This document shows positions 18,799 through 57,187 of a stretch of DNA of 64,000 bases, in pieces. The notes under the pieces are model-generated. The model was not told where the DNA came from, did not search any database, and saw nothing but the letters and a program-made list of their open reading frames with translations. The DNA lies in the NCBI GenBank assembly GCA_900469475.1, contig UBXG01000017.1, positions 186,001 to 250,000 on the forward strand, written 5' to 3'. Source of the DNA: Hyphomicrobiales bacterium (lineage in GTDB: Bacteria; Pseudomonadota; Alphaproteobacteria; Rhizobiales; Rhizobiaceae). The position numbers and the translations under genes are program-made. Numbering within the stretch: position 1 is the stretch's first letter; each line of letters starts with the position of its first letter.

Positions 18799-19356
18799 CT
18801 ATCCCGCGCGAACGGGACGAGCAGGATTGCCGACAACAGTCGCACCGGCGGCAACATCCCTGGTGACGACCGCGCCGGCGCCGATGATCGCGCCATCGCC
18901 TACCGTGATGCCGCCGACCAAGATCGCTCCACCGCCGATCCAGACGCTTCTGCCTATCGTTACCGGCCGTGCGACCTCCATGCCCGCTCCGCGCAGTTCG
19001 GCATCCTTGTGATGTTCGGCACAATAGATATGCACCCCCGGCCCCAGCATGCTGCCGTCGCCGATGCGGACGCTGGCGCTGTCGAGGATGGTGCAGCCGG
19101 CATTCATGTAGACTCGGCGGCCGAGCGAGATATTGATGCCATAGGAGCAATGAAACGGCGCCTCGATGAAGACGCTCTCGCCGATCTCGGCAAAAAGCGC
19201 AGACAGAGCCGGCGCAAGATTGCCGCGCTGGGCGGGCGGCATTGTATTATGTGCATGCACAGCCTCGCGTGCCTGCCAGCGCAAGGCGTCGAGTTCCGGA
19301 TCGAAACAACAGTACCACTCCCCCGCCGCCATTTTCTGCCGCTCACTGAGACCCAT
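18799..19356 (-). CDS. sugar O-acetyltransferase (maltose acetyltransferase/NodL family)
   Basis: Left-handed beta-helix acetyl-CoA-dependent transferase, 185 aa. It has the N-terminal Mac domain (QKMAAGEWYCCFDPELDALR), then hexapeptide repeats such as VRIGDGSMLGPGVHIY, VTIGRSVWIGGGAILVGG and ITVGDGAIIGAGAVVTRDV, and the catalytic histidine in the AEHHKD loop. The family includes Maa, LacA and NodL; the sugar acceptor cannot be decided, and no nod genes are near. Confidence 0.9.
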   Translation of the reverse strand: MGLSERQKMAAGEWYCCFDPELDALRWQAREAVHAHNTMPPAQRGNLAPALSALFAEIGESVFIEAPFHCSYGINISLGRRVYMNAGCTILDSASVRIGDGSMLGPGVHIYCAEHHKDAELRGAGMEVARPVTIGRSVWIGGGAILVGGITVGDGAIIGAGAVVTRDVAAGATVVGNPARPVRAG

Positions 19357-42044: not shown

Positions 42045-42112
42045 GCGGACGTGGCGAAACTGGTAGACGCAAGGGACTTAAAATCCCTCGGAGTGATCCG
42101 TACGGGTTCGAC
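42045..42112 (+). pseudogene. tRNA-Leu(UAA), 3'-truncated by the mobile element
   Basis: The first 68 nt of a tRNA-Leu are present: acceptor 5' strand GCGGACG, D arm, anticodon loop CTTAAAA with UAA, long variable arm (CGGAGTGATCCG) and half of the T arm (ACGGGTTCGAC). The sequence then changes to GGCATCGAATAAA, with no partner for the T stem or acceptor in the next 100 nt, so the gene cannot give a normal tRNA. The break in the T loop, 130 nt before an integrase gene, marks attL of the inserted element. Confidence 0.88.
42101..42112 (+). other. candidate attachment-site core (attL)
   Basis: TACGGGTTCGAC lies at the junction between tRNA and element. The same 12 nt occur in inverted orientation inside the element's own tRNA-Leu (45722-45733). 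T loops are a known crossover position for tyrosine recombinases. The matching right end is not in the window. Confidence 0.6.
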
Positions 42113-42244
42113 GGCATCGAATAAAATCACATAAAATCATATACTTATAATTCTTGAAGTCATAATTTCTCCGCCTTTTTGGCGTACACATTCCATACAC
42201 AGTCTGATGCACAGTTTTCGAGACGCTAGGATGGGATTGAAAGC

Positions 42245-43468
42245 ATGGCCACGCATGAGATTTTAGGCGGCAAGGTTCTCGTCTATCGCCGCGAGAACAG
42301 TAAGAAATGGCAGTGCTCGACCCGCATTAACGGCAAGAACTGGCGGACAAGCACTGGCGAGGAAAGTCTGGCCCTCGCGAAGGAATTCGCGGAGGACTGG
42401 TTCTTTCGGATGAAGGCGAAGGAAAAGGGTGGCGGCCTGAAGGACGAGAAGACTTTCAAGGAGGCCGCCAAGCGCTACCTTGAAGAATACGACGTGGTGA
42501 CCGGCGGTACGCGCAACCGGACCTATGTGGACGGCAACGAACGTCGGCTGCGTCTGTATCTTACGCCCTTCTTCGGCGAGCTGGGTTTGTCGGAGGTGAC
42601 GGCAGGCAAAGTGCAGGAATACCGGGTCATGCGGTATACCACTGCGCCGGAGGTGGCGCCGGGGAATGATCCCGACGCCAAGCCGGTCAAGAAGCTACCC
42701 GCCAAGAATACCCTGCATCAGGAGATCGTGACCCTTCGGCAGGTCCTCAAGACCGCCATCCGGCACGGCTGGCTGACGCATCTGCCGGATCTGTCCACAC
42801 CCTACAAGTCGGCGGAGAAAATCTCCCATCGGGCATGGTTCTCCCCCGACGAATACAAGCGGCTCTATACCGCGACCCGGAACCGGGCCGAAAAGCATCG
42901 CGACAGGCGCTTCCAGTGGCACGCCGAACAGTTGCACGACTTCGTCCTGTTCATGGCCAATACCGGTCTGCGTCCCGACGAAGCCAAACGGCTTCAGTAT
43001 CGGGATGTCGAGATCGTTGAGGACGAGGAAACCGGCGACACCATCCTGCTGATCCAGGTGCGCGGCAAACGTGGCGTCGGCTATTGCAAGAGCATGCCCA
43101 GCGCCGTTTTCCCATTCGAGCGGCTGGTGAAGCGGAACTCGCCCAAGGCGGATAACCTGATTTTCGCCGACACTCACCCAATGTTATTCAACACGATCTT
43201 GGAAGAGGAAGGGCTCAAATTTGACCGCGAGGGCAGTCGCCGCACGGCCTACAGCCTACGTCACACCTACATCTGCCTCCGGCTCATGGAAGGTGCGGAC
43301 ATCTATCAGGTCGCCAAAAACTGCCGCACCAGCGTCGAGATGATCGAGAAGTATTATGCCTCGCACATCGCGACGAGCATCAGCGCCGCCGCCGTGAACG
43401 TCCGGCGCAAGGTGAAATCGAAGAAGCAGATTGTTGATCATGAGAAGCGGAATATGCATCGGCAATAG
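42245..43468 (+). CDS. int: tyrosine recombinase / site-specific integrase
   Basis: Integrase of 407 aa. The N-terminal part resembles an Arm/core-binding region (NGKNWRTSTGEESLALAKEF); the catalytic domain shows NTGLRPDEAKRL with the first Arg near residue 241, YSLRHTYICLRL with the second Arg, and MIEKYYASH with the nucleophile Tyr. The second catalytic His is replaced by Tyr (YSLRH), common in this branch. Position and orientation directly after the broken tRNA-Leu indicate it catalysed the insertion. The upstream 118 nt are AT-rich, as expected of an attachment region. Confidence 0.93.
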   Translation: MATHEILGGKVLVYRRENSKKWQCSTRINGKNWRTSTGEESLALAKEFAEDWFFRMKAKEKGGGLKDEKTFKEAAKRYLEEYDVVTGGTRNRTYVDGNERRLRLYLTPFFGELGLSEVTAGKVQEYRVMRYTTAPEVAPGNDPDAKPVKKLPAKNTLHQEIVTLRQVLKTAIRHGWLTHLPDLSTPYKSAEKISHRAWFSPDEYKRLYTATRNRAEKHRDRRFQWHAEQLHDFVLFMANTGLRPDEAKRLQYRDVEIVEDEETGDTILLIQVRGKRGVGYCKSMPSAVFPFERLVKRNSPKADNLIFADTHPMLFNTILEEEGLKFDREGSRRTAYSLRHTYICLRLMEGADIYQVAKNCRTSVEMIEKYYASHIATSISAAAVNVRRKVKSKKQIVDHEKRNMHRQ

Positions 43469-43564
43469 CCGGTGGGATGCTATAATTTCAACAGATCTCT
43501 TGTTTTGGATAGCTTCATTTTGCCTAGTCGTTTAAATTGTATTTCGTAATAGCTGGAGGCAAAA

Positions 43565-45613
43565 TTGAATTTTACTATTGAAGAGTTCTGGAAGAAACGT
43601 TTTCAGATTGCACCTGCCGAAACAACAAATCCGCAGCCGGGATGGGTTTCTGCGCAACTTCCGTTAGGCGCATTTGTTGAAGCCCCGCTAGTTCAGAGCG
43701 GTGAATTTGGCACGGCTGATCCAGACACCAGTCCACTCATTCTCGTTTCGGCTCCCGGCGCTGTAGGAAAATCCACGCTAGCTAAGCAAATCGCGGCCCT
43801 GACCGGTGCGATTTATGTTGATCTTGCGACGGCAGAACCTGTCGGAGGTAACTTTCTAAGCGGCGGCTTAGCAAAATCTGGTCTTTTTGGAACCTGGCAA
43901 GCTAACACAACGGCAGTGCTGATTGATGGACTCGATGAGGCACGCATTAGGGTCACGCAAGGCGGTTTTGAATCGTTCCTCGGGGACGTTGTTCAGATGG
44001 CGAAAACTCGGTCAGCTCAAACTCCAGTTCCAACTGTTCTCTTCGGACGGACTGGTGCGATCCAAGATACTTGGTTACTGCTATCAGAAGCTGGCGTGAA
44101 TGCACCGGTGATGGAAATAGGTTTTTATCCACCCGCGCAATCCATCGAGTTCGCGCTTGCGCGGGTAAGGGATAGGAAGCCAGACCGTTCGCATGAAGGC
44201 CCGGAACGAGAAGCTCTTACTCTATTGTTAGAGCGGCTGAAGAAATCCACCAGTCGCGACGGGGATCGATTTGCAGGTTATGCGCCTGTCCTCATGGCAG
44301 TTGCTGATAGGGTTGCTGGTGAAGCAAACCCAAGCGGACTAATCGCTGAAATCAAAGGAGGCGGTCAGCCGGTCACCTTGGAGACCGTCGTTGACGCAAT
44401 CCTCGAGCGGGAACACGCCAAGCTTGGCAGCTTAGAGTTTACCTCTTCTAGCCTCCACGACCAACTGTATACGTCTGGCGAGCAATTGGATCGTATCTGC
44501 GCGCGTGTTTACGGCCAACCCGCTCCTGCACTTCCTAAACTCTCCCCACAAGACGCTAAGACTTATGGTCAAGCGCTGGATACCTGGGTTCCAGAGCATC
44601 CATTCCTCGACGGAACCGCAAAACCGTCATCGGCTGTATTCGAGGCGCGGATAGCAGTTCATGCGTTGCAATCCAAGGAATTTGAAGAGCAGGCTCGGCG
44701 CGTAGAACTACCAAGAGGCACAGCAGCCAACCCCTTCTTAGCCGATTTCTATTTGAATTCAAAATCTGGCCAAACCCAGGAAATACGGCCAGAGCACTTG
44801 GGAATTTTATATTCGTCGATCCGCGCGACCCTTGCTCTAGGCGACACCGCCAGTTTGCAGATAGAACCGTTGGACGAGGATGCTCAGGAGGAAGACGCCC
44901 TTTCGGCGCTTGCCGAAATTTCGGTTGAGCGAGGCAGTACAGGGGAAAGCCATACGTTGGAGCTTAAGACCCAACAAGTTGGAACGATCCACCTTAGTCC
45001 TCACGTAGAAGATGTAAACATCACACTTCAGCTTGCAAAGGTTGAGGTTGGACCAGGCGCTGAAATAACTTTCGTCGCGCCAGTCAACATTCAATGTGGA
45101 CAGCTCTTAATCAACGCCGAACGAGTCATCGTCGAGGCTTTGACGGACGACCCTTCAACCTCCGTCTACCTGGAAAGCAACTCGTCATCCGGGACCACAG
45201 TCAGCACGGTTCCGACCATTAGAGGCAATACCTCTTTGTCAGTAGCTTGGCCAAATTCAGCGGTCTTTCCCTGGACAAGCTTTTCGGCAAACCCGGCTGC
45301 AAATCAAGACCCGCGGATTGAAGAAGGGCTCCGTCGCTTGCGGAAGTTCGTAATTGCATTCCGTTCACATTCAAAAGGTAGCTTGCGACGCTATCGCGAT
45401 AAACTCGATCATGCACGAATGACGAAGGGCGTGGGACAAGCCATCCTGGATGCATTAAAGCAACAAGGAATCATCACCGTAGTCGGAGAGATGTATGACC
45501 TGAATGCTGATGCTCTCGGCGCAAAGGTTGGGGCGACGTATGCGGAATGTATGAGTCGTCAGTTCAGCCCACGCACAGTCGAGTTTGTGGAAACTGTATT
45601 GAAAGCCGATTAG
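43565..45613 (+). CDS. STAND/NACHT-like P-loop NTPase, orphan (defence candidate)
   Basis: Protein of 682 aa from a TTG start, supported by GGAGG six bases upstream. Walker A SAPGAVGKST is at residues 62-71 and a NACHT-style Walker B AVLIDGLDEA at 117-126. After the helical region comes a Thr/Val/Glu-rich, probably beta segment (about 430-590) and a C-terminal winged-helix-like end (ILDALKQQGIITVVGEMYDL). I recognise no family. NTPases of this build commonly act as phage sensors. Base composition is lower in GC than the core, and at least eight in-frame TTA codons are seen. It stands alone between the integrase and the element's tRNA-Leu. Confidence 0.72.
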   Translation: MNFTIEEFWKKRFQIAPAETTNPQPGWVSAQLPLGAFVEAPLVQSGEFGTADPDTSPLILVSAPGAVGKSTLAKQIAALTGAIYVDLATAEPVGGNFLSGGLAKSGLFGTWQANTTAVLIDGLDEARIRVTQGGFESFLGDVVQMAKTRSAQTPVPTVLFGRTGAIQDTWLLLSEAGVNAPVMEIGFYPPAQSIEFALARVRDRKPDRSHEGPEREALTLLLERLKKSTSRDGDRFAGYAPVLMAVADRVAGEANPSGLIAEIKGGGQPVTLETVVDAILEREHAKLGSLEFTSSSLHDQLYTSGEQLDRICARVYGQPAPALPKLSPQDAKTYGQALDTWVPEHPFLDGTAKPSSAVFEARIAVHALQSKEFEEQARRVELPRGTAANPFLADFYLNSKSGQTQEIRPEHLGILYSSIRATLALGDTASLQIEPLDEDAQEEDALSALAEISVERGSTGESHTLELKTQQVGTIHLSPHVEDVNITLQLAKVEVGPGAEITFVAPVNIQCGQLLINAERVIVEALTDDPSTSVYLESNSSSGTTVSTVPTIRGNTSLSVAWPNSAVFPWTSFSANPAANQDPRIEEGLRRLRKFVIAFRSHSKGSLRRYRDKLDHARMTKGVGQAILDALKQQGIITVVGEMYDLNADALGAKVGATYAECMSRQFSPRTVEFVETVLKAD

Positions 45614-45704
45614 GACTTGCTCAATTGCCAACACAAATTTGACAGAAACTCGTTCCGCGCCAATTGCAATATACCGTCAAACCCTATTGTCGGTCATGAT
45701 TAGT

Positions 45705-45994
45705 TGGTGCGGACGACGGGGGTCGAACCCGTAAAGCCAAAGGCCGAGGGATTTTCTTACCAGCTACGGCTTTCGCCGCCGCCATCCGGCGTTTGTGGTC
45801 TGGACTATACCTTCACCCTAGCATTGCCTTAGGTGCTGCCCGTCTAGTCTCTACACCTTCCTCTGGCGAGGCTTGGCTCGGGATTGCCATCTGACAGGTT
45901 TCCCCGACTTTGAGCAGTTCTACAGCCAGCGTTTCCGCCAGTGCACTCAAATTGCGTTTAAGTCCCTTGTGTCTACCAGTTTCACCACGTCCGC
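45705..45994 (-). tRNA. tRNA-Leu (UAA) interrupted by a group I intron
   Basis: The 5' exon (45960-45994, 35 nt) and 3' exon (45705-45755, 51 nt) join into an 86-nt tRNA: acceptor GCGGACG/CGTCCGC, anticodon stem AGGGA/TCCCT, loop CTTAAAA with anticodon UAA, variable arm GCCTTTGGC, T stem ACGGG/CCCGT, discriminator A and an encoded CCA. The joined anticodon arm is identical to that of the broken host gene at 42045, which has no intron. The element thus carries a full replacement for the tRNA it disrupts. Confidence 0.93.
45756..45959 (-). ncRNA. group I self-splicing intron (204 nt) in the anticodon of tRNA-Leu
   Basis: P1 forms between exon/intron ACTTAAA and intron TTTGAGT, giving the obligatory U-G pair at the 5' splice site after U34. 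The P7 guanosine site is seen as GACTA (45845-45849) pairing with TAGTC (45803-45807), within the conserved contexts AGACTAGACGGGC and GGTATAGTCC. P2 and P9 (CGGCGAAAGCCG, 45767-45778) have GAAA loops, and the intron ends in G. The position, between U34 and A35, is that of the cyanobacterial and plastid tRNA-Leu(UAA) intron. No homing endonuclease is encoded. Confidence 0.92.
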
Positions 45995-46121
45995 GTGGTT
46001 CCCTCTGCTAGCAAAGTGGCGGGCCATTCTCAACCGCTAATCGCGCGCTCGGGAGACTTTCCAAAGGAGTTCTAGCAACCTCTAGTGTTGCGCCACCTTG
46101 AAAGATGCACGCGCCCATGTA

Positions 46122-46190
46122 TCAATGCGTAACAGCGCACCTACGCATCGCCCAATGTGTACGCATTGAGCTAGGGAGGCGATGCGTTGC
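46122..46190 (+). other. inverted-repeat cluster, candidate oriT
   Basis: Several overlapping inverted repeats lie just ahead of the relaxase gene: AATGCGTA (46124-46131) with TACGCATT (46160-46167), and CGCATCGCC (46144-46152) with GGCGATGCG (46178-46186). Relaxase genes usually adjoin their nick region, so this is the best oriT candidate. The nick position is unknown. Confidence 0.5.
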
Positions 46191-46286
46191 ACGGTTTTCT
46201 TACCGGCCGCGAAGGGGCGGCACGGAGAAAACCGGCAAGTGCGTCAGGGGACACCCCTGAACCCCGTCCGTGCCAAGGAGAGGCTG

Positions 46287-47360
46287 GTGGCCATCTACCA
46301 CCTGAATGTGAAGAACATCAGCCGGGGCGACGGGCGCTCGATTGTTGCCGCTGCCGCGTACCGCGCGGGAGAGACGCTCCCCAATGATGCCGAGGAACGC
46401 CTTTCGGAGTTCGGCGGGCGGCGTGATGTCGTCGCCAATGAAATCCGCCTCCCCTCTGAGGCGCCGCCCTGGATGGCCGACCGCGCCCAGCTCTGGAATG
46501 CGGTGGAGGCTGCCGAAATCCGTAAAGATGCGCGGCTTGCCAAGGAGATCGAATTCGCGCTGCCGCGCGAGCTGCCGCGCGCGGCCTGGTTGGCAGTCGC
46601 CCGCACCATGGCCGATGCGTACACGACGCAAGGCTTTGTGGTCGATCTCGCCATCCATGATGATGGCACCCGGCATAACCCCCATGTCCACCTGCTTATG
46701 ACCACGCGTGTGGTCACGCCCGAAGGCTTCGGCCCGAAGATCCGCAGCGCGGATGGTCGACTATTCGTAACCGAGGCGCGTGCACTGTGGGCCCGAACCG
46801 CCAACGGCGCATTGAAGGCTGCCGGAGTGTCGGTCACGATCGACAGCCGCAGTCATGCGAAACGCAGGCTGGACCAGACACCCGACCACCATCGCGGACC
46901 GGACCCGGACGAACGGCGCGCACGCAGAGCCCACGCGCGCAAGGAGAGAGACCTGATGAGGCATGAAGAACCCGACAATGACCTGCCCGTGCCGGATCCC
47001 GATGGTGCGCCGATCCATCCCCGTGAACTGGACATAGCCGAAGCGCGGATGCTGGACGACATGCACCGGCTGGCGCCGGTCGATCACGTCGAGCGGGACG
47101 CGGATCTTGACCACGCACGAGCCGCGATTGACGCACAGAACAGTCGCGAGATGGCTGAGGATGAGGCTGTGGCATACCGTCTCGCGCCCGAAGACCTGCT
47201 CGACTGGCTGGATCAGCCAGCCCTGCCGGATGACCCGGGTGATTTGCAGACGCTGGAGCGCTGGGAAGACCATCTGGACTGGCTGGAGCTGGATTCCCAG
47301 CAACCAGTAACCCCCGCAGATGAGGAAATATGGCAGGAGCCTGAGCGCAGCCGCAGGTAG
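46287..47360 (+). CDS. MobA/MobL-type relaxase (HUH endonuclease)
   Basis: Conjugative relaxase of 357 aa that would nick oriT and pilot the strand. I choose the GTG at 46287: AAGGAG lies six bases upstream and the product begins AIYHLNVKNISRGDGRSIV, as the MobA/TraA group does. An AAAAYRAGE motif follows; the metal histidines are in HNPHVHLL (about residues 130-137). Only the relaxase part is present: the helicase domains of Ti-type TraA are missing. The acidic C-terminal tail contains EDLLDWL and EDHLDWL, repeated in the 155-aa protein downstream. Confidence 0.88.
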   Translation: MAIYHLNVKNISRGDGRSIVAAAAYRAGETLPNDAEERLSEFGGRRDVVANEIRLPSEAPPWMADRAQLWNAVEAAEIRKDARLAKEIEFALPRELPRAAWLAVARTMADAYTTQGFVVDLAIHDDGTRHNPHVHLLMTTRVVTPEGFGPKIRSADGRLFVTEARALWARTANGALKAAGVSVTIDSRSHAKRRLDQTPDHHRGPDPDERRARRAHARKERDLMRHEEPDNDLPVPDPDGAPIHPRELDIAEARMLDDMHRLAPVDHVERDADLDHARAAIDAQNSREMAEDEAVAYRLAPEDLLDWLDQPALPDDPGDLQTLERWEDHLDWLELDSQQPVTPADEEIWQEPERSRR

Positions 47361-48221: not shown

Positions 48222-49148
48222 TCAGCGCTTCGCGTACGCAATATCTTCCACGTTCGGCAGCGCAATCGCAGGCTCCAAAGGCAAGCTTTCCTGTTGCCGT
48301 CTGACGGGAATGCGCTTCAGGAAGCGCTCGGAATTCAGCGCCGCCCGCCGCTCCCGCAGGGTCGGATGTGTCGAAAATAGCAAGCCCGGAATGCCGCGGA
48401 ACATCAGCCGGGCATTTTCGCGTTCGAAGGCACTCAATGGCGGGCTGTCGTGGAGTTTTTCCAGCGCCGCAATCATGTGCTCCTTGCTGGTAAGGGCTGC
48501 TCCGATGGCGTCGGCCCAAAACTCGCGCCTGCGCGAGAGGCTAAGCACAAGAAACTCGGAGAGCCAGGTCAGAAGCCACCTTGCCCACCGCTGGAGGGTT
48601 TTGGAAAAGCCGAGATACCACACCAGCGAGTTCTGGAACGAACGGGCCAGACCCATGCGGCGCATATCGTTATTGGCGATGTGGCCAAGTTCGTGACCGA
48701 TGATGGCATCGACTTCGGCCTCATTGAGCGTGTCGATCAGCGGCTGCCCGATCACAACAAGGGCGCTTTCAGGGCTGGAGCCGATGGCATAGGCGTTGTT
48801 GTGGGCCATCACACCCACCCACGGGCGTGTTTTCAGTCCGAGCTGGGCGGCCAAAATGTAGACCCGCTGGGCGAGCGGATCGTCGGGCTCCAGCAGTGTG
48901 ATGCCATGCTGGCGCACTGCGGCCTCGCGCTGCCTGCCGAGCCCGATGAGCCCCCAGAACGTTCCCCACACCGGCACGGCAAGGAAGCCACCCATCGCCG
49001 TCCCCGCCGCAACCCCAAAACCAATTCCAACCGGCGCGGAAAGCAGGCCGGCCCACGCCAGTCCGAACCAGCTGCCGATCACAAGCCCCAGCCATGTCGG
49101 TACACTGCTATTTTGAAGTCTTTGGTAGTTGATTTTGACGTCGGCCAT
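48222..49148 (-). CDS. M48 family membrane metalloprotease
   Basis: HtpX/Ste24-like protease, 308 aa. Two N-terminal membrane helices (TWLGLVIGSWFGLAWAGLL and an Ala/Gly-rich second one) precede the zinc site HELGH (AIIGHELGHIANND) and the third ligand in REFWADAIGA. The catalytic domain is complete. Its start overlaps the last 41 nt of the coupling-protein gene, so the two are translated from one mRNA, which points to a role in transfer (pilus or channel quality control) rather than general heat shock. That role is inference. Confidence 0.88.
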   Translation of the reverse strand: MADVKINYQRLQNSSVPTWLGLVIGSWFGLAWAGLLSAPVGIGFGVAAGTAMGGFLAVPVWGTFWGLIGLGRQREAAVRQHGITLLEPDDPLAQRVYILAAQLGLKTRPWVGVMAHNNAYAIGSSPESALVVIGQPLIDTLNEAEVDAIIGHELGHIANNDMRRMGLARSFQNSLVWYLGFSKTLQRWARWLLTWLSEFLVLSLSRRREFWADAIGAALTSKEHMIAALEKLHDSPPLSAFERENARLMFRGIPGLLFSTHPTLRERRAALNSERFLKRIPVRRQQESLPLEPAIALPNVEDIAYAKR

Positions 49149-50841
49149 GATTGATCCCCTGCGCTACCATTCCGATGCGTTGTCTGCAGATTTCGCTTTT
49201 CTCATGCACGGCGAGCAATGTCTTGAATGGTCGCTTGCCGGCGATATCCGTAATGCCGTAGCGCCAGCCATCGCCCTGCCACCCACCCAACAACTCCCGG
49301 ACCTCGTCGCTTGTCAGCAGTGGGCGACCCAGAAATTGAATGCCTTCGGTCATCGAGAAGTTGGTGTTCGTGGACGCCTCTCCCAACCAGCCACCGAGAT
49401 GCGATGCGACGTTTGCAGTAGCGGTAGTCGTTTGATAGGCATGGGTTGCATGGCCGAGATAATCGCCGATCAGCTTGGACGTCTGGTCGTCATTGATCCC
49501 GAAGAACTGCTTGACGGCGCAATTCAGGAACGGCTGCCAGCTGGCGCCAGGATAGTGTTCCTGGATGGCGTACAGGTTTTGCAGGAAGAACCAGAGCCGA
49601 ACCCCAGCGCCCGCGTGCGTGTTGATCGCATCCCGGTATTCGGGAAATGGCCCGATGTTCAGGAATTCGTCGAGCACGAAGAGGACCGGGATATCGGGAA
49701 TGCGCGGGTTGGCCAGCATGGCATCAAGTGCGGCCTTCAGCACGACCCGAAGCCACCCCGAAAACGTCTTCATCATGTCGAAGGGGATCTCGACATACAC
49801 CGTGGCAGGGCTGTCTTTCAGGTCTTCAAAGCTGAAATCGTTTCCCCGGATACTGTGCTGGATATCCGGGTCCTTCCATTCGTAGAGCTTGCTCGTCAAG
49901 GTATCCTGCAAGACTTTCAGCCCACGCTGCGCGTCTTTTTCGAGCACGGAACGTGCTCCATCTGCGGACGGACGAAACGTCTCCATCTGCTTGGCGAGAT
50001 TGAGGAGTTTCTCGCCCTTGAGGGAGGCCATTTGACAGACGGTGGCCAGCGTTCGGCGATCGGGCGGAGCCTTGTGGCGAACATACATGATGATGGCTGT
50101 CATGAAGCCGACCGCGTCCTCGGAGAAAAACGAAGACGACCTTGGATCACGCGGGAACATTTGCTGGGCGATCGATCGCGCGTCTGCTTCGCGACGAACC
50201 CGACTGACGGGATCAAAGCGATGGACGGGTTTACCGGAGCCGCCATCCAGCGGCGCGATCCGGTACACCGGACCCAGTGTGCTGCGCCACTTCGAGGTGG
50301 CTTCAAACAACTCCCCCTTGGGATCGAGAACGACGCAGCTGCCCCGGTAGCGCAGAAGGTTCGGAATGATGGCCGTCTTACCCTTGCCGGAGCGTGTCGG
50401 CGCGATCGTCAGCAGGTGGCCGTCTCCGTCCCAATGGACAAAGCCGGCGGGCATGGTCTGGCCTTCATCGTTGAACGCACCCAGCAGGATCGAACGGGGA
50501 TCGTCGAAGGCATCCTTGCCCCGCAGGTACGCCCGAAGATCCGTCGAGTTGGGCCATCGTGCCGAACCGTAGAGTGGCGGCGGATCGGCAAGCTGACGCT
50601 CGCGCTCCTGGCGTGCGGTGAGATTGTGCTTGGCGCGCTCAATGATGGGACCTGGATCCCGGCCAGACCGGATGGCGGCTTCCACCGCATCCGCGACCTC
50701 TGGCCCGTAGAGGACCTCCACACGTCGGCGTGCCGAACGCCCCTTCGCATATCGAAACGTCTTTACCGCCCAGTTCCCCACTTTCACAGAGGAAGCAAGA
50801 TCGCGCTGCAAATCGCCCAAAGGATCGTACTTGTTGGTCAT
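49108..50841 (-). CDS. VirD4/TraG-type coupling protein
   Basis: Type IV coupling ATPase of 577 aa that links relaxosome and channel. Walker A APTRSGKGKT is at about residues 147-156 and Walker B appears as IPVLFVLDEFLNIG; NDDQTSKLIGDYLG and RPLLTSDEVRELL are typical of the family. The N-terminal 140 residues show no clear membrane helices, unlike VirD4 and TraG, so membrane attachment may depend on a partner. I start at MTNKYDPLGDLQ. Transcribed towards the relaxase genes, with which it converges. Confidence 0.9.
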   Translation of the reverse strand: MTNKYDPLGDLQRDLASSVKVGNWAVKTFRYAKGRSARRRVEVLYGPEVADAVEAAIRSGRDPGPIIERAKHNLTARQERERQLADPPPLYGSARWPNSTDLRAYLRGKDAFDDPRSILLGAFNDEGQTMPAGFVHWDGDGHLLTIAPTRSGKGKTAIIPNLLRYRGSCVVLDPKGELFEATSKWRSTLGPVYRIAPLDGGSGKPVHRFDPVSRVRREADARSIAQQMFPRDPRSSSFFSEDAVGFMTAIIMYVRHKAPPDRRTLATVCQMASLKGEKLLNLAKQMETFRPSADGARSVLEKDAQRGLKVLQDTLTSKLYEWKDPDIQHSIRGNDFSFEDLKDSPATVYVEIPFDMMKTFSGWLRVVLKAALDAMLANPRIPDIPVLFVLDEFLNIGPFPEYRDAINTHAGAGVRLWFFLQNLYAIQEHYPGASWQPFLNCAVKQFFGINDDQTSKLIGDYLGHATHAYQTTTATANVASHLGGWLGEASTNTNFSMTEGIQFLGRPLLTSDEVRELLGGWQGDGWRYGITDIAGKRPFKTLLAVHEKSEICRQRIGMVAQGINHGRRQNQLPKTSK

Positions 50842-51033
50842 TGTGTCGCCCCGGCCCAACTAGAGCGAGAGTAACAACCGATGTTAGAATTGCAATAGTG
50901 TTTCAATCCTTCATAAGTTGCTGAAATACCCCGATCGCAAAGTCGGAACCGACCGCGATCCCCGGACAGGGAGGCCACGCGTGGACACGCGAGCCTCTTG
51001 CGTGACGCGGTGAACGCCGCAAACGTCTTCTTT

Positions 51034-51141: not shown

Positions 51142-52104
51142 ATGCCTAGCGTCTTCTTTTCGTACTCACACGCCGATGAAGATCTCAGAGATCAGCTGGA
51201 AAAGCAGTTGTCCATGCTGAAACGACAGGGTGCCATCGACACATGGCATGACCGGCGTATCGGCGCGGGAGAGGAACTAAACCGCGTCATCGATGACCAC
51301 ATCAATACGGACGACATCATCCTTTTGCTCGTCAGTGCCGATTTCATCGCCTCCGACTATTGCTACAACATCGAAATGGAACGTGCCATGGAACGGCACG
51401 CGAAGGGTGAAGCTATCGTTATTCCCGTCATCCTGCGGGCCTGCGACTGGCATCATGCGCCGTTCGGCACATTGATGGCGGTGCCACGGGACGGTAAGCC
51501 CGTGACCCAGTGGCCCGATATTGACGAGGCCTTTCTTCAGGTTGCGAAAGCGGTTCGCGACGCCGCCCAGCGTTCGACGAAAACCCCTCAGCCTGCGCAC
51601 CCCGCTGTTGCCGAGGAGCGACCCGGTGTCACTACCATCGCAATGCCGGCGCCACGGTCGAGCAACCTGCGGCTCGCGAAAACCTTCACGCAGAGAGACA
51701 AGGATCGTTTTCGCGACGAAACCTTCGAGTACATCGCCCGCTTCTTCGAAACCTCCCTCAAGGAACTCGGTGAGCGCAATCCCGGCATTGAAGGTGTCTT
51801 CCGGCGGGTGGATGCGAACCGGTTCTTTGCCACCGTCTACCGCGACGGGAAGGACGTCGCCCGCGGCACCGTCTTTATGGGCGGTGGCGCGTGGGGACGC
51901 GGCATCAATTATGCGCAGGGCGAAACCACCACCAGCAACTCCATGAACGAATCCCTGAATGTCGAGGCCGATGATCAGGCTCTTTATTTGACCAGTCTGG
52001 GCATGGCGTCGTTCGGACGTGATCGAGGCCAAAAGCTTTCGCAGGAAGGCGGCGCCGAACTTTTATGGGACATTTTGATCCGGCCTCTTCAAGACAAACG
52101 CTAG
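51142..52104 (+). CDS. TIR-domain protein (defence candidate)
   Basis: Protein of 320 aa. The N-terminal TIR domain (1-150) has VFFSYSHADEDLRDQLEKQL, the WHDRRIGAGEELN box 2 region and SADFIASDYCYNIEME, in which Glu78 matches the NADase catalytic glutamate. A Pro-rich linker (about 150-180) leads to a second domain (185-320) with a mixed alpha/beta look that I do not recognise; it may sense a signal. AGGAGGAAAT directly precedes the ATG. The next gene starts 15 nt after its stop, so they form a two-gene operon. Confidence 0.82.
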   Translation: MPSVFFSYSHADEDLRDQLEKQLSMLKRQGAIDTWHDRRIGAGEELNRVIDDHINTDDIILLLVSADFIASDYCYNIEMERAMERHAKGEAIVIPVILRACDWHHAPFGTLMAVPRDGKPVTQWPDIDEAFLQVAKAVRDAAQRSTKTPQPAHPAVAEERPGVTTIAMPAPRSSNLRLAKTFTQRDKDRFRDETFEYIARFFETSLKELGERNPGIEGVFRRVDANRFFATVYRDGKDVARGTVFMGGGAWGRGINYAQGETTTSNSMNESLNVEADDQALYLTSLGMASFGRDRGQKLSQEGGAELLWDILIRPLQDKR

Positions 52105-56012: not shown

Positions 56013-56315
56013 CTACCATGAAATCTCCAATTCCGGATATTCGGTGACGATCGAGCGACGGCTGGCATCCTGTTCGAGATGGGTAGGCCTCCAGACGTAA
56101 TGGAATTCCTCCCGGTCGAGCCATTCCTCCAATGCCTTGGCGGCATCGGTATCCGAGAGATCGAATGGCAGCTCCTGAACGACGCGGTAATGGCGGTGGC
56201 CCTGGAATGCGACTTCGTCGATCGCGGTGGCGATCGTCTCCGGCTTGAACAGCTTGTTGGCGTATTTGGTTCGCACATTGGCGGCCATCAGGAAATTCCC
56301 CTCAGCACGTTTCAT
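56013..56315 (-). CDS. hypothetical protein coupled to the second integrase
   Basis: Protein of 100 aa, containing KLFKPETIATAIDEVAFQGH, DTDAAKALEEWLDREEFHYV and RSIVTEYPELEIS. Its start overlaps the integrase stop by one base (TGATG), so translation is coupled. It could be a directionality or accessory factor, but no helix-turn-helix is evident. Confidence 0.62.
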   Translation of the reverse strand: MKRAEGNFLMAANVRTKYANKLFKPETIATAIDEVAFQGHRHYRVVQELPFDLSDTDAAKALEEWLDREEFHYVWRPTHLEQDASRRSIVTEYPELEISW

Positions 56316-57187
56316 CAGAAGGCACTCCCCAGGTAGGTATCAGTGATCTTGAGACGGCCATGGCCGAGCTCGGCCGAGATCTGCCGCCGCGCGGCGCGGT
56401 CGGCTTCCCGTTCCTTGGCATCCATCTCGTTCCAGCGCTTGCCGCCCGCGAGCGGACAGGGTTTGCCGGTCAGGACGGCATAGCGCCTTTGCGCATAGGC
56501 ATGACGGAATCCGTGGGTATTGCGCAGGCCCGCCTTGCTGGTCTGGTATTCATAGCTTTTCAGGTGCTCGACATAGGTCAGCTCTGACGGGATCAGGGAA
56601 TCCTGTCCTTTGACCACGGTGACGACGTGCTGCAGCGCGTGGCGCTGTTCCACCGTCGTGATCGGAATCGTTCGTGCCCGTCCACCTTTCGTCCAACTGG
56701 CCTGCAGTGAAATATGGTCGGCACGCATCGCGACATGCGGCCGGAACTTCAAGGCTTCCTCGCGGCGCAGGCCGAAGGCGACCTGCAGCAGGATCGAGGC
56801 TTTGATGTGGGGGCTTTCGATGCTCTGGAATTTGGACTGGTCGAGCGTCTGCGCGCGGTTGCGCGTGACCTCGCCGCGCTCTGCGACGCCATAGGCGGCG
56901 TTGTCGCGGCGGACGACATTCGGCTTGCCGATCTTCTCGGCCCACCAGCGCAACCAGCTGAGCCGGTTACGCACGCTGGCGTCGGTTTTGTCCTCGTCGA
57001 GCCATTTTTCGACAAGGGCTTCAATATGTTTGGGTTTGAGCGATGACGCCGCCGGTAGCTTGTAGCCAAGCTCCTCGAGGTCGTCGGCCATCGCGGTCAG
57101 TCCGCGCTGGCGGTTATTCTGCGTGCCGTGAGAGCCGTCCCGGTTGCGCTTGCAAAGGCGCACCAGGTCCATGGTCAGATCGTCCAT
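56315..57187 (-). CDS. integrase-fold protein (Integrase_1 / phage integrase N-terminal type)
   Basis: Protein of 290 aa. The N-terminal SAM-like part (QNNRQRGLTAMADDLEELGY) and the catalytic domain fit the Integrase_1 group common in ICEs. Catalytic residues seen: Arg141/142 in FGLRREEALKFRP, HGFRHAYAQRR with His/Arg, LGHGRLKITDTYLG with His and the Tyr nucleophile. GGAGAAG lies ahead of the ATG. The element thus has two tyrosine recombinases; this one may serve excision or an internal recombination. Confidence 0.85.
   Translation of the reverse strand: MDDLTMDLVRLCKRNRDGSHGTQNNRQRGLTAMADDLEELGYKLPAASSLKPKHIEALVEKWLDEDKTDASVRNRLSWLRWWAEKIGKPNVVRRDNAAYGVAERGEVTRNRAQTLDQSKFQSIESPHIKASILLQVAFGLRREEALKFRPHVAMRADHISLQASWTKGGRARTIPITTVEQRHALQHVVTVVKGQDSLIPSELTYVEHLKSYEYQTSKAGLRNTHGFRHAYAQRRYAVLTGKPCPLAGGKRWNEMDAKEREADRAARRQISAELGHGRLKITDTYLGSAF

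Follow-up and report, generated by a model that had tools for sequence, protein, structure and literature searches.

The stretch of DNA analysed here, referred to as the window, comprises 64,000 nucleotides of a Hyphomicrobiales bacterium of the family Rhizobiaceae (contig UBXG01000017.1, here C11, positions 186001-250000). The genome has a size of 6.35 Mb and is available as a draft in 50 contigs. In this region, the host gene for tRNA-Leu(UAA) is split into a 5' half and a 3' half by an integrated element of 38,181 bp (one core counted). The host 5' part is located at 42045..42091 on the plus strand and contains the 5' strand of the acceptor stem, the D arm and the anticodon arm. It was delimited by comparison with the intact tRNA-Leu(UAA) gene of a relative (G297), to which it is 100% identical (query positions 1-48). 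The core of the left attachment site (attL) is an 18-bp stretch of the anticodon arm (42074..42091, plus strand) that is repeated at the right attachment site (attR), at window-equivalent 80255-80272 and outside the window. The displaced 3' half of the host gene is found at attR (C11:266255-266311, window-equivalent 80255-80311). It is complete to the CCA, likewise 100% identical to the G297 gene, and followed by wrbA. A whole-genome search for a 17-mer from the anticodon arm, tolerating at most two mismatches, returned two places, namely 42075 (attL) and C11:266256 (window-equivalent 80256, attR).

Adjacent to the attL core lies an element-derived tRNA-like remnant (42092..42119, plus strand) with variable-arm-like and T-arm-like sequence, in which ARAGORN calls no gene. 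A 3' end supplied by the attachment site of the element (attP) and rebuilding the tRNA was not found, as attL is without an acceptor 3' strand. ARAGORN calls no tRNA gene at attL or attR, and Rfam calls none at attL.

A complete tRNA-Leu(UAA) gene of 290 bp including the CCA is encoded within the element on the minus strand (45705..45994; ARAGORN with option -i and alignment with 24 others). Its 5' exon (45960..45994) ends with GACTT, the last base being U34, and its 3' exon (45705..45755) starts with AAAATC and ends with CCA. The two exons are separated by a group I intron of 204 nt in the anticodon loop, directly after U34 (45756..45959, minus strand; bounded by RF00028, ARAGORN and the consensus structure). 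The intron scores 51.2 bits against Rfam RF00028, just above the gathering score of 50. A pattern check found promoter-like sequence before the gene (46005..46033, minus strand: TTGAG[AC], 17 bp, TAGCAG). The same motif precedes 8 of 16 intron-bearing tRNA-Leu genes, i.e. those of the window, Rhizobium pisi, Breoghania, G029, G045, G068, G152 and G062, and 3 of 26 element copies. A general cassette promoter is ruled out by these counts. To judge from its sequence, the replacement gene looks maintained and spliceable.

A preliminary description of this DNA had reported a broken tRNA-Leu(UAA) at 42045, an intact intron-split copy inside the element, and a second gene supplied in trans in place of repair in cis. 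All of this is borne out, the break by the sequence at attL. The same description had placed the break in the T loop at the element boundary and had taken the 3' half to be missing. The first statement is wrong, since the common core lies in the anticodon arm and the T-arm-like piece is element DNA; the second does not hold either, the 3' half being present at attR.

To characterize the remaining tRNA-Leu repertoire, ARAGORN was applied to all 43 RF00005 matches of the genome. It identified four tRNA-Leu genes, with the anticodons CAA, UAG, CAG and GAG. No second tRNA-Leu(UAA) outside the element was found in the 50-contig draft by the 17-mer search or by ARAGORN at the 43 RF00005 places. The intron-split gene of the element is the sole UAA reader detected in the draft, and the case for this is strong but not absolute. 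The host-side open reading frames (ORFs) of the window, picked mechanically, contain 12 TTA codons among 11,193, distributed over 9 of 33 ORFs, and a UUA reader is therefore needed. Uninterrupted tRNA-Leu(UAA) genes are present in four relatives of the same genus (G297, G337, G250 and G128) and in G069. In G297, G337 and G128 the intact gene adjoins wrbA, as attR does here. The earlier supposition of a single UAA-reading tRNA in this host agrees with the data. The further proposal that the element is self-stabilising stands in part: partial deletion or loss of the segment with the intron-bearing tRNA would be penalised. Clean loss is a different matter. Exact excision should rebuild the host gene because each half matches the intact G297 gene with 100% identity, and clean loss of the element would therefore carry no penalty.

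The gene next to attL encodes a tyrosine integrase of 407 aa, Int1 (42245..43468, plus strand). Its match to PF00589 (22.5 bits, E 1.1e-4) lies under the curated cut-off of 27.1, despite which the protein clearly belongs to an integrase family. A survey of this family was performed in two collections. In a sample of 394 genomes of the host's family, Int1 relatives were found at E <=1e-60 in 18 genomes (21 copies). In a wider scan, Int1 and the integrase of the Oricola indica element, to which Int1 is 78% identical, were compared with 84,980 species, and the best 80 of 239 relatives were used. The survey set comprises 100 loci: the window, 19 family copies and these best 80 of 239. An extra or replacement tRNA was sought in the available downstream sequence, up to 7 kb. 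ARAGORN typed some of the intron-bearing genes as Ser, Phe or Stop because the splice site was misplaced, and these were typed by eye from their exons. Many of the survey records are metagenome bins, so that single taxon assignments may be wrong. One locus (L169) belongs to the same genome as G264 (Oricola indica).

In the family sample, an intact tRNA gene (Lys, Thr, Met, Trp or Phe) abuts int in 19 of the 21 copies. The exceptions are the window and Oricola indica (G264), where tRNA-Leu(UAA) is likewise split and an intron-bearing tRNA-Leu(UAA) is located on the contig of the 3' half, on the opposite strand to that half. Across the survey set, int adjoins an intact tRNA at 37 of 100 loci (33 without duplicates, four such pairs having identical integrases in both collections), and none of these loci shows a tRNA downstream of int in the available sequence. 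A readable broken tRNA-Leu is found upstream of int at 49 loci, 30 of them UAA and 19 CAA. Here the D-loop motif of the 5' half lies 130-260 bp before int, and in most cases the tRNA sequence is lost just past the anticodon loop. A replacement is present at 38 of the 49 broken loci, and its isoacceptor fits the broken gene in 38/38 (29 UAA, 9 CAA), five of these fits resting on incomplete copies. A Fisher test of the locus classification gives p 8e-15, which treats related loci as independent and is descriptive only.

At the broken UAA genes, 29 of 30 loci have a replacement and all 29 replacements are intron-bearing. Twenty-four of these are complete; L183, L184, L187 (few intron bases only) and L211 are cut by a contig end, L206 contains N's, and the Oricola case is spread over two contigs. 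The 19 broken CAA genes are accompanied by 8 intronless tRNA-Leu(CAA) replacements, 1 intron-bearing one (L222, a CAA gene and hence left out of the complete UAA introns) and 10 without any. Outside the 49 broken loci fall L188, L197, L198, L207, L208, L228 and L243, which have a replacement and no 5' half upstream, and L191, whose contig starts at int. Where the distance from int to the intron-bearing tRNA downstream was measured, it is 23-144 bp and both are on the same strand, except in the window, R. pisi and Breoghania, where the tRNA lies 2.2-5 kb away and on the opposite strand. In the sister elements of R. pisi, Breoghania corrubedonensis and O. indica, the intron-bearing tRNA is opposite in strand to the host tRNA. 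The R. pisi element (L167, strain DSM 30132) is small and extends from attL at ~9800 to attR at 19301; tRNA and element are inverted relative to the neighbours ilvA and wrbA. The intron-bearing cassettes occur in contigs assigned to Pseudomonadota, Acidobacteriota and Candidatus Binatota, the intronless ones also in Planctomycetota and Verrucomicrobiota. The pair of integrase and intron-bearing tRNA, for which a survey of related elements had been suggested, is recurrent (29 broken UAA loci) and more than a single oddity.

Two other explanations of the locus can be weighed on these data. That the break is an isolated decay or deletion in one element, with the intron-bearing tRNA as unrelated cargo, is barely conceivable. 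The element-side 3' tRNA remnant does look truncated, but the two host halves are undamaged and lie on either side of the element, and the pairing is repeated in sister and distant elements. An isolated deletion at attL in particular is ruled out by the missing half at attR and by the same arrangement in sister elements. It is also unlikely, if somewhat less so, that the tRNA is carried for UUA decoding by the element itself or against tRNA-cutting defences and does not replace a host gene. The element ORFs are indeed richer in TTA (43 of 9,706 codons vs 12 of 11,193 on the host side, ORFs again picked mechanically). Against this stand the absence of an extra tRNA in the available sequence of all 37 relatives with an intact neighbouring tRNA (0/37) and the isoacceptor fit in 38/38.

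The failure to rebuild the host gene in cis takes several forms. In the window and in R. pisi, the 3' tRNA piece of the element stops in the T loop. In Breoghania and Oricola, the piece consists of the 3' end of a different, short-armed tRNA, and the acceptor strand of that tRNA does not pair with the host 5' half. Cis repair thus appears to have failed in different ways among the elements, as would be expected of elements that already bring a replacement along. In the integrase tree (quick method, without the short L146), the window, R. pisi, Breoghania and Oricola form one starred clade. Cis versus trans requires 2 changes among the scored rows, or 4 if all other rows are counted as non-cis; the intron label changes more often, with 14 changes for the intron-bearing rows. 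Trans replacement looks like an old habit of whole clades. Distances between integrases and between intron-bearing tRNAs are correlated (Mantel r 0.50, p 0.0002, n=26), which fits joint inheritance, to which host relatedness may contribute.

The intron is conserved in position, sequence and structure. In 25/25 complete UAA copies it directly follows the first anticodon base, with GACTT on its 5' side and AAAATC on its 3' side, and the U-G pair at the 5' splice site is invariant in all of them. The alignment of the 25 copies yields 77 consensus pairs, of which 32 have pair-keeping changes on both sides, and the tRNA stems are preserved. RF00028 was matched above the gathering score at 9 of 21 related loci and at E 6.8e-9 to 9.2e-6 at 7 more; the remaining 5 of the 21 stayed below threshold in one scan (L174 and L189, and the incomplete L184, L187 and L211). 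Such strong conservation could suggest that splicing is a regulated switch coupling tRNA supply to the state of the host or to element transfer. This is very improbable: the need to splice accounts for the conservation, and no regulatory partner was seen, although none was searched for.

We consider it highly probable that a mobilizable element has broken the only detected UAA tRNA gene of its host and supplies an intron-bearing replacement, with the intron as a putative shield of the attachment core. In this process, Int1 would insert the element into the sole tRNA-Leu(UAA) gene detected in the host, within its anticodon arm. The junction is not rebuilt, unlike in most relatives at other tRNAs, and the cell would then depend on the tRNA-Leu(UAA) of the element. 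The attachment core consists of the anticodon loop and a few flanking bases, and the intron after U34 interrupts it within the replacement. Without a contiguous core, the replacement would be spared by the integrase, and splicing would restore the normal loop in the RNA. The parts of this account that are inferred from sequence are that the replacement is expressed and spliced, that the element excises, that loss of the replacement is lethal, and that the intron has a shielding role.

The bases next to the core bear on the shielding role. At one further locus, L190, attR is visible too, and the common core is just GACTTAAAA, which is cut in two by the intron position. In 19 of 24 pairs, the intron-bearing replacement shares the three stem bases before the loop with the host gene that it replaces; in intronless CAA replacements these bases differ from the target in 7 of 8 pairs. 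The UAA targets have GGA at this place in 26 of 31 cases. Among the five intronless UAA replacements found, those of L197, L228, G107 and G305 have GCA and that of G369 has AGA; the host half also has GGA in G107, G305 and G369. A single stem change common to all intronless UAA replacements is ruled out by these two variants. The pattern fits, without proving, a model in which either the intron or an altered stem prevents self-integration.

The intron could instead be a passenger of a real trans replacement, the elements having taken whatever tRNA-Leu(UAA) alleles were available, some bacterial ones being intron-bearing anyway. This is a possibility to be taken seriously, if not a probable one. 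A search with the intron-bearing tRNA returned close copies in at least ~20 genomes of the family sample, and in four of them (G329, G105, G203 and G002) the intron-bearing gene is resident beside wrbA, outside any element, and intermixed with element copies in the tree. The idea that every intron-bearing tRNA-Leu of the sample is element-borne is ruled out, as several sit at the native locus. A passenger role would also suit the 8 of 9 CAA replacements that are intronless and the five intronless UAA replacements. It is harder to reconcile with the intron in 29 of 29 replacements at readable broken UAA genes, with contiguous intronless copies being common among the matches listed in the family sample, and with the tendency of intronless replacements to carry altered stem bases beside the core.

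Several observations weigh against the explanation by breakage, replacement and shielding. The first group concerns the classification of loci. Six of the 100 are unclassified (L175, L214, L220, L227, L235 and L240), and seven loci with a replacement have only core-like sequence upstream. The available downstream sequence is shorter than 2 kb at 23 of the 37 loci with an intact tRNA, and shorter than 200 bases at two of these, so that a distant extra tRNA would be missed. In O. indica, int and the 5' half are on one contig and the intron-bearing tRNA is on another. Rfam scores the chimeric attL as a tRNA above gathering in L168 (Breoghania, 41.7 bits) and L171 (Maricaulis alexandrii, 34.1). 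The second group concerns replacement itself. No replacement was found within up to 7 kb downstream at 11 of the 49 broken loci, all of them in Acidobacteriota (10 CAA and 1 UAA, L245). The CAA cases are L204, L217, L230, L231, L233, L237, L238, L239, L241 and L246. L240, cut by the contig start, probably represents a further UAA break without replacement, and L175 resembles a broken tRNA-Arg without repair. The loss of tRNA-Leu(CAA) may be bearable because tRNA-Leu(UAA) also reads UUG, which is of no help for L245. Furthermore, tRNA-Ile was likewise not found in the draft of the host, which keeps the absence of a second UAA gene from being absolute. The missing tRNA-Ile is attributed to unassembled rRNA operons, in which tRNA-Leu(UAA) is not normally located. 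The third group concerns the intron and the expression of the cassette. Intronless UAA replacements occur in this integrase family (L197, L228) and in other lineages (G107, G305, G369), and the intron is therefore not required. The intronless CAA replacement of L178 is identical to its target in the loop and in the three stem bases. Finally, the promoter-like motif is lacking in 23 of 26 element copies.

Split tRNA-Leu(UAA) genes with a second copy are also found in other lineages. In G206 and G344, the gene is split and an intron-bearing tRNA lies ~160 bp inside attL. The integrase gene of G344 adjoins attR, on a different contig from attL, and has no match to Int1 at E 1e-3; at the place of the integrase, G206 has a weak N-terminal match only. 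The pairing of broken and intron-bearing tRNA may thus have arisen more than once. In G107 (L073) and G305 (L107), an intronless, diverged tRNA-Leu(UAA) is located just inside the attL of the split gene. In G369 (L104/L153, C60:1040-1193), a full intronless tRNA-Leu(UAA)-like copy (84%) stands directly 5' of a stray 3' half, i.e. as an element-end replacement in the window's own genus. Three genomes, G029 (L076), G045 (L077) and G195 (L078), have an intron-bearing tRNA-Leu(UAA) near the native locus and no same-contig integrase among the matches listed. No tRNA halves were found in G029, a stray 3' half is present on the other strand in G045, and a 5'-like piece in G195. These may be elements whose intron-bearing tRNA stayed behind as a host gene. 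In G218 (L074), a stray 5' half of tRNA-Leu(UAA) lies 12.7 kb from an intact copy with an adjoining integrase, as if the element restored the 5' rather than the 3' part. Related group I introns are also present in tRNA-Arg(CCU) genes (L054, L057, L060-L062 and L065); an intron of this type is known in Agrobacterium.

The remaining gene content was examined by a Pfam analysis of 19 element proteins. Between int and the intron-bearing tRNA lies an ORF of 682 aa (43565..45613, plus strand) with no match in Pfam or PADLOC. It is followed beyond the tRNA by a MobA/MobL relaxase (46182..47360, plus strand; PF03389, E 2.4e-52) and a TraG/VirD4-type coupling protein (49108..50859, minus strand; PF02534, E 1.5e-53). 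A further recombinase-type protein (Integrase_1 / Phage_int_SAM_2; 56315..57187, minus strand) is 65% identical to its counterpart in the O. indica element. The scan also returned a TIR protein, a resolvase, a ParB-like protein and three tyrosine-recombinase-type proteins in total. The TIR protein (51142-52104, plus strand) matches a Thoeris ThsB model with 482 bits. A large SMC/AAA ATPase followed by a trypsin-like protein (window-equivalent 72654-76721, L004:8654-12721) gives weak matches to several defence models. Near attR, a second integrase with an Arm-DNA-bind_3 domain (window-equivalent 77512-78888, minus strand, L004:13512-14888), adjoined by a partial duplicate, shares ~27% identity with the attR-adjacent integrase of G344. 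Two stacked elements were considered on account of this second integrase; no internal core was found, and the region was therefore taken as one unit. Integrase, relaxase and coupling protein are located between the two att sites, and a complete mating-pair apparatus was not seen among the 19 proteins. We call the element an integrative mobilizable element. The presence of relaxase and coupling protein does not agree with a temperate phage (the element proteins were not run against a phage family library). A phage origin of the integrase was rejected as well: no Int1 relatives were found in 50,697 phage records at E 1e-40, and matches elsewhere comprise seven plasmid records with <60% identity and two weak matches in viral contigs.

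Several known systems resemble the present one, as far as the available portions of the publications show. In mycobacteriophages, tRNA-dependent lysogeny has been described (Guerrero-Bustamante and Hatfull 2024, PMC10865867). Here as there, a tyrosine integrase uses an attB in a host tRNA gene with a short core, and the tRNA is not rebuilt. A phage-borne tRNA of the same isotype is needed for lysogeny in that system, e.g. tRNA-Leu-CAA downstream of Int in phage Gaia, and a replacement of the same isoacceptor is carried here. Unlike in these phages of Actinobacteria, the present system involves a non-phage mobilizable element, other hosts from several phyla, and a replacement that contains a group I intron; in the accessible text of PMC10865867, 'intron' appears once, in a reference title. 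vTRX32-1-like Rhizobium prophages integrate in a tRNA-Leu with a 12-bp motif and carry a full tRNA-Leu without it, which their authors suggest to prevent super-integration (PMC8631192). We read their target from the motif as tRNA-Leu(UAG). In that case the element is a phage and the motif is lost by sequence change, with no mention of an intron in the accessible text, whereas an intron interrupts the core here. Replaced host tRNAs are also discussed in PMC11476347, and Sinorhizobium phiLM21-like prophages target tRNA-Leu(UAA) but rebuild it (PMC12429752). Relatives with the same type of integrase (51-64% identity) in tRNA-Lys, Met, Phe, Arg, Thr, Trp, Gln and Asn have int beside the tRNA, as here, but with the tRNA intact and no replacement gene seen.

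Group I introns in the anticodon loop of tRNA-Leu(UAA) are known from bacteria and plastids and are stated to be ancient for cyanobacteria and plastids (reviewed in PMC4033280). Gene and loop position are the same here, but the known introns reside in host or plastid genes and the present one in an integration module. In archaea, tRNA introns and split tRNAs have been proposed as integration barriers or to be spread by attP (Randau and Soell 2008; Sugahara 2012; cited in PMC4033280 and PMC8371274). There, splicing is carried out by protein enzymes and the host is protected; here, the element would protect its own copy. Cluster J mycobacteriophages, which have group I introns and integrate in a tRNA-Leu (PMC3706429), are a different matter, as their introns are in capsid and tail genes and not in a replacement tRNA. 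A literature search, mostly of papers outside subscription, turned up no description of a mobile element whose replacement tRNA contains a group I intron. The principle of breaking and replacing a tRNA is known from phages; a mobilizable non-phage lineage across phyla, with a replacement interrupted inside the attachment core, is new.

The system described here is real and recurs; in it, tRNA-dependent integration takes a variant form outside the known phages, with an intron positioned in the attachment core. The strategy of breaking the host tRNA and bringing a replacement is thereby extended beyond phages of Actinobacteria to an integrase family from contigs assigned to Pseudomonadota, Acidobacteriota, Planctomycetota and Verrucomicrobiota, and this bears on the question, left open in PMC10865867, of how common it is elsewhere. 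It also offers a concrete and testable function for the group I intron of tRNA-Leu(UAA), namely to conceal the gene from integrases, and leads to the prediction that hosts whose resident allele carries the intron are resistant to these elements. More tentatively, the intron might be a general integrase shield that hides tRNA-Leu(UAA) from widespread anticodon-loop integrases, with elements carrying and spreading the shielded allele. If this were true, elements that leave the shielded allele at the native locus would spread it among chromosomes, and selection would help to explain why group I introns are patchily distributed among bacterial tRNA-Leu(UAA) genes and have persisted there for long.

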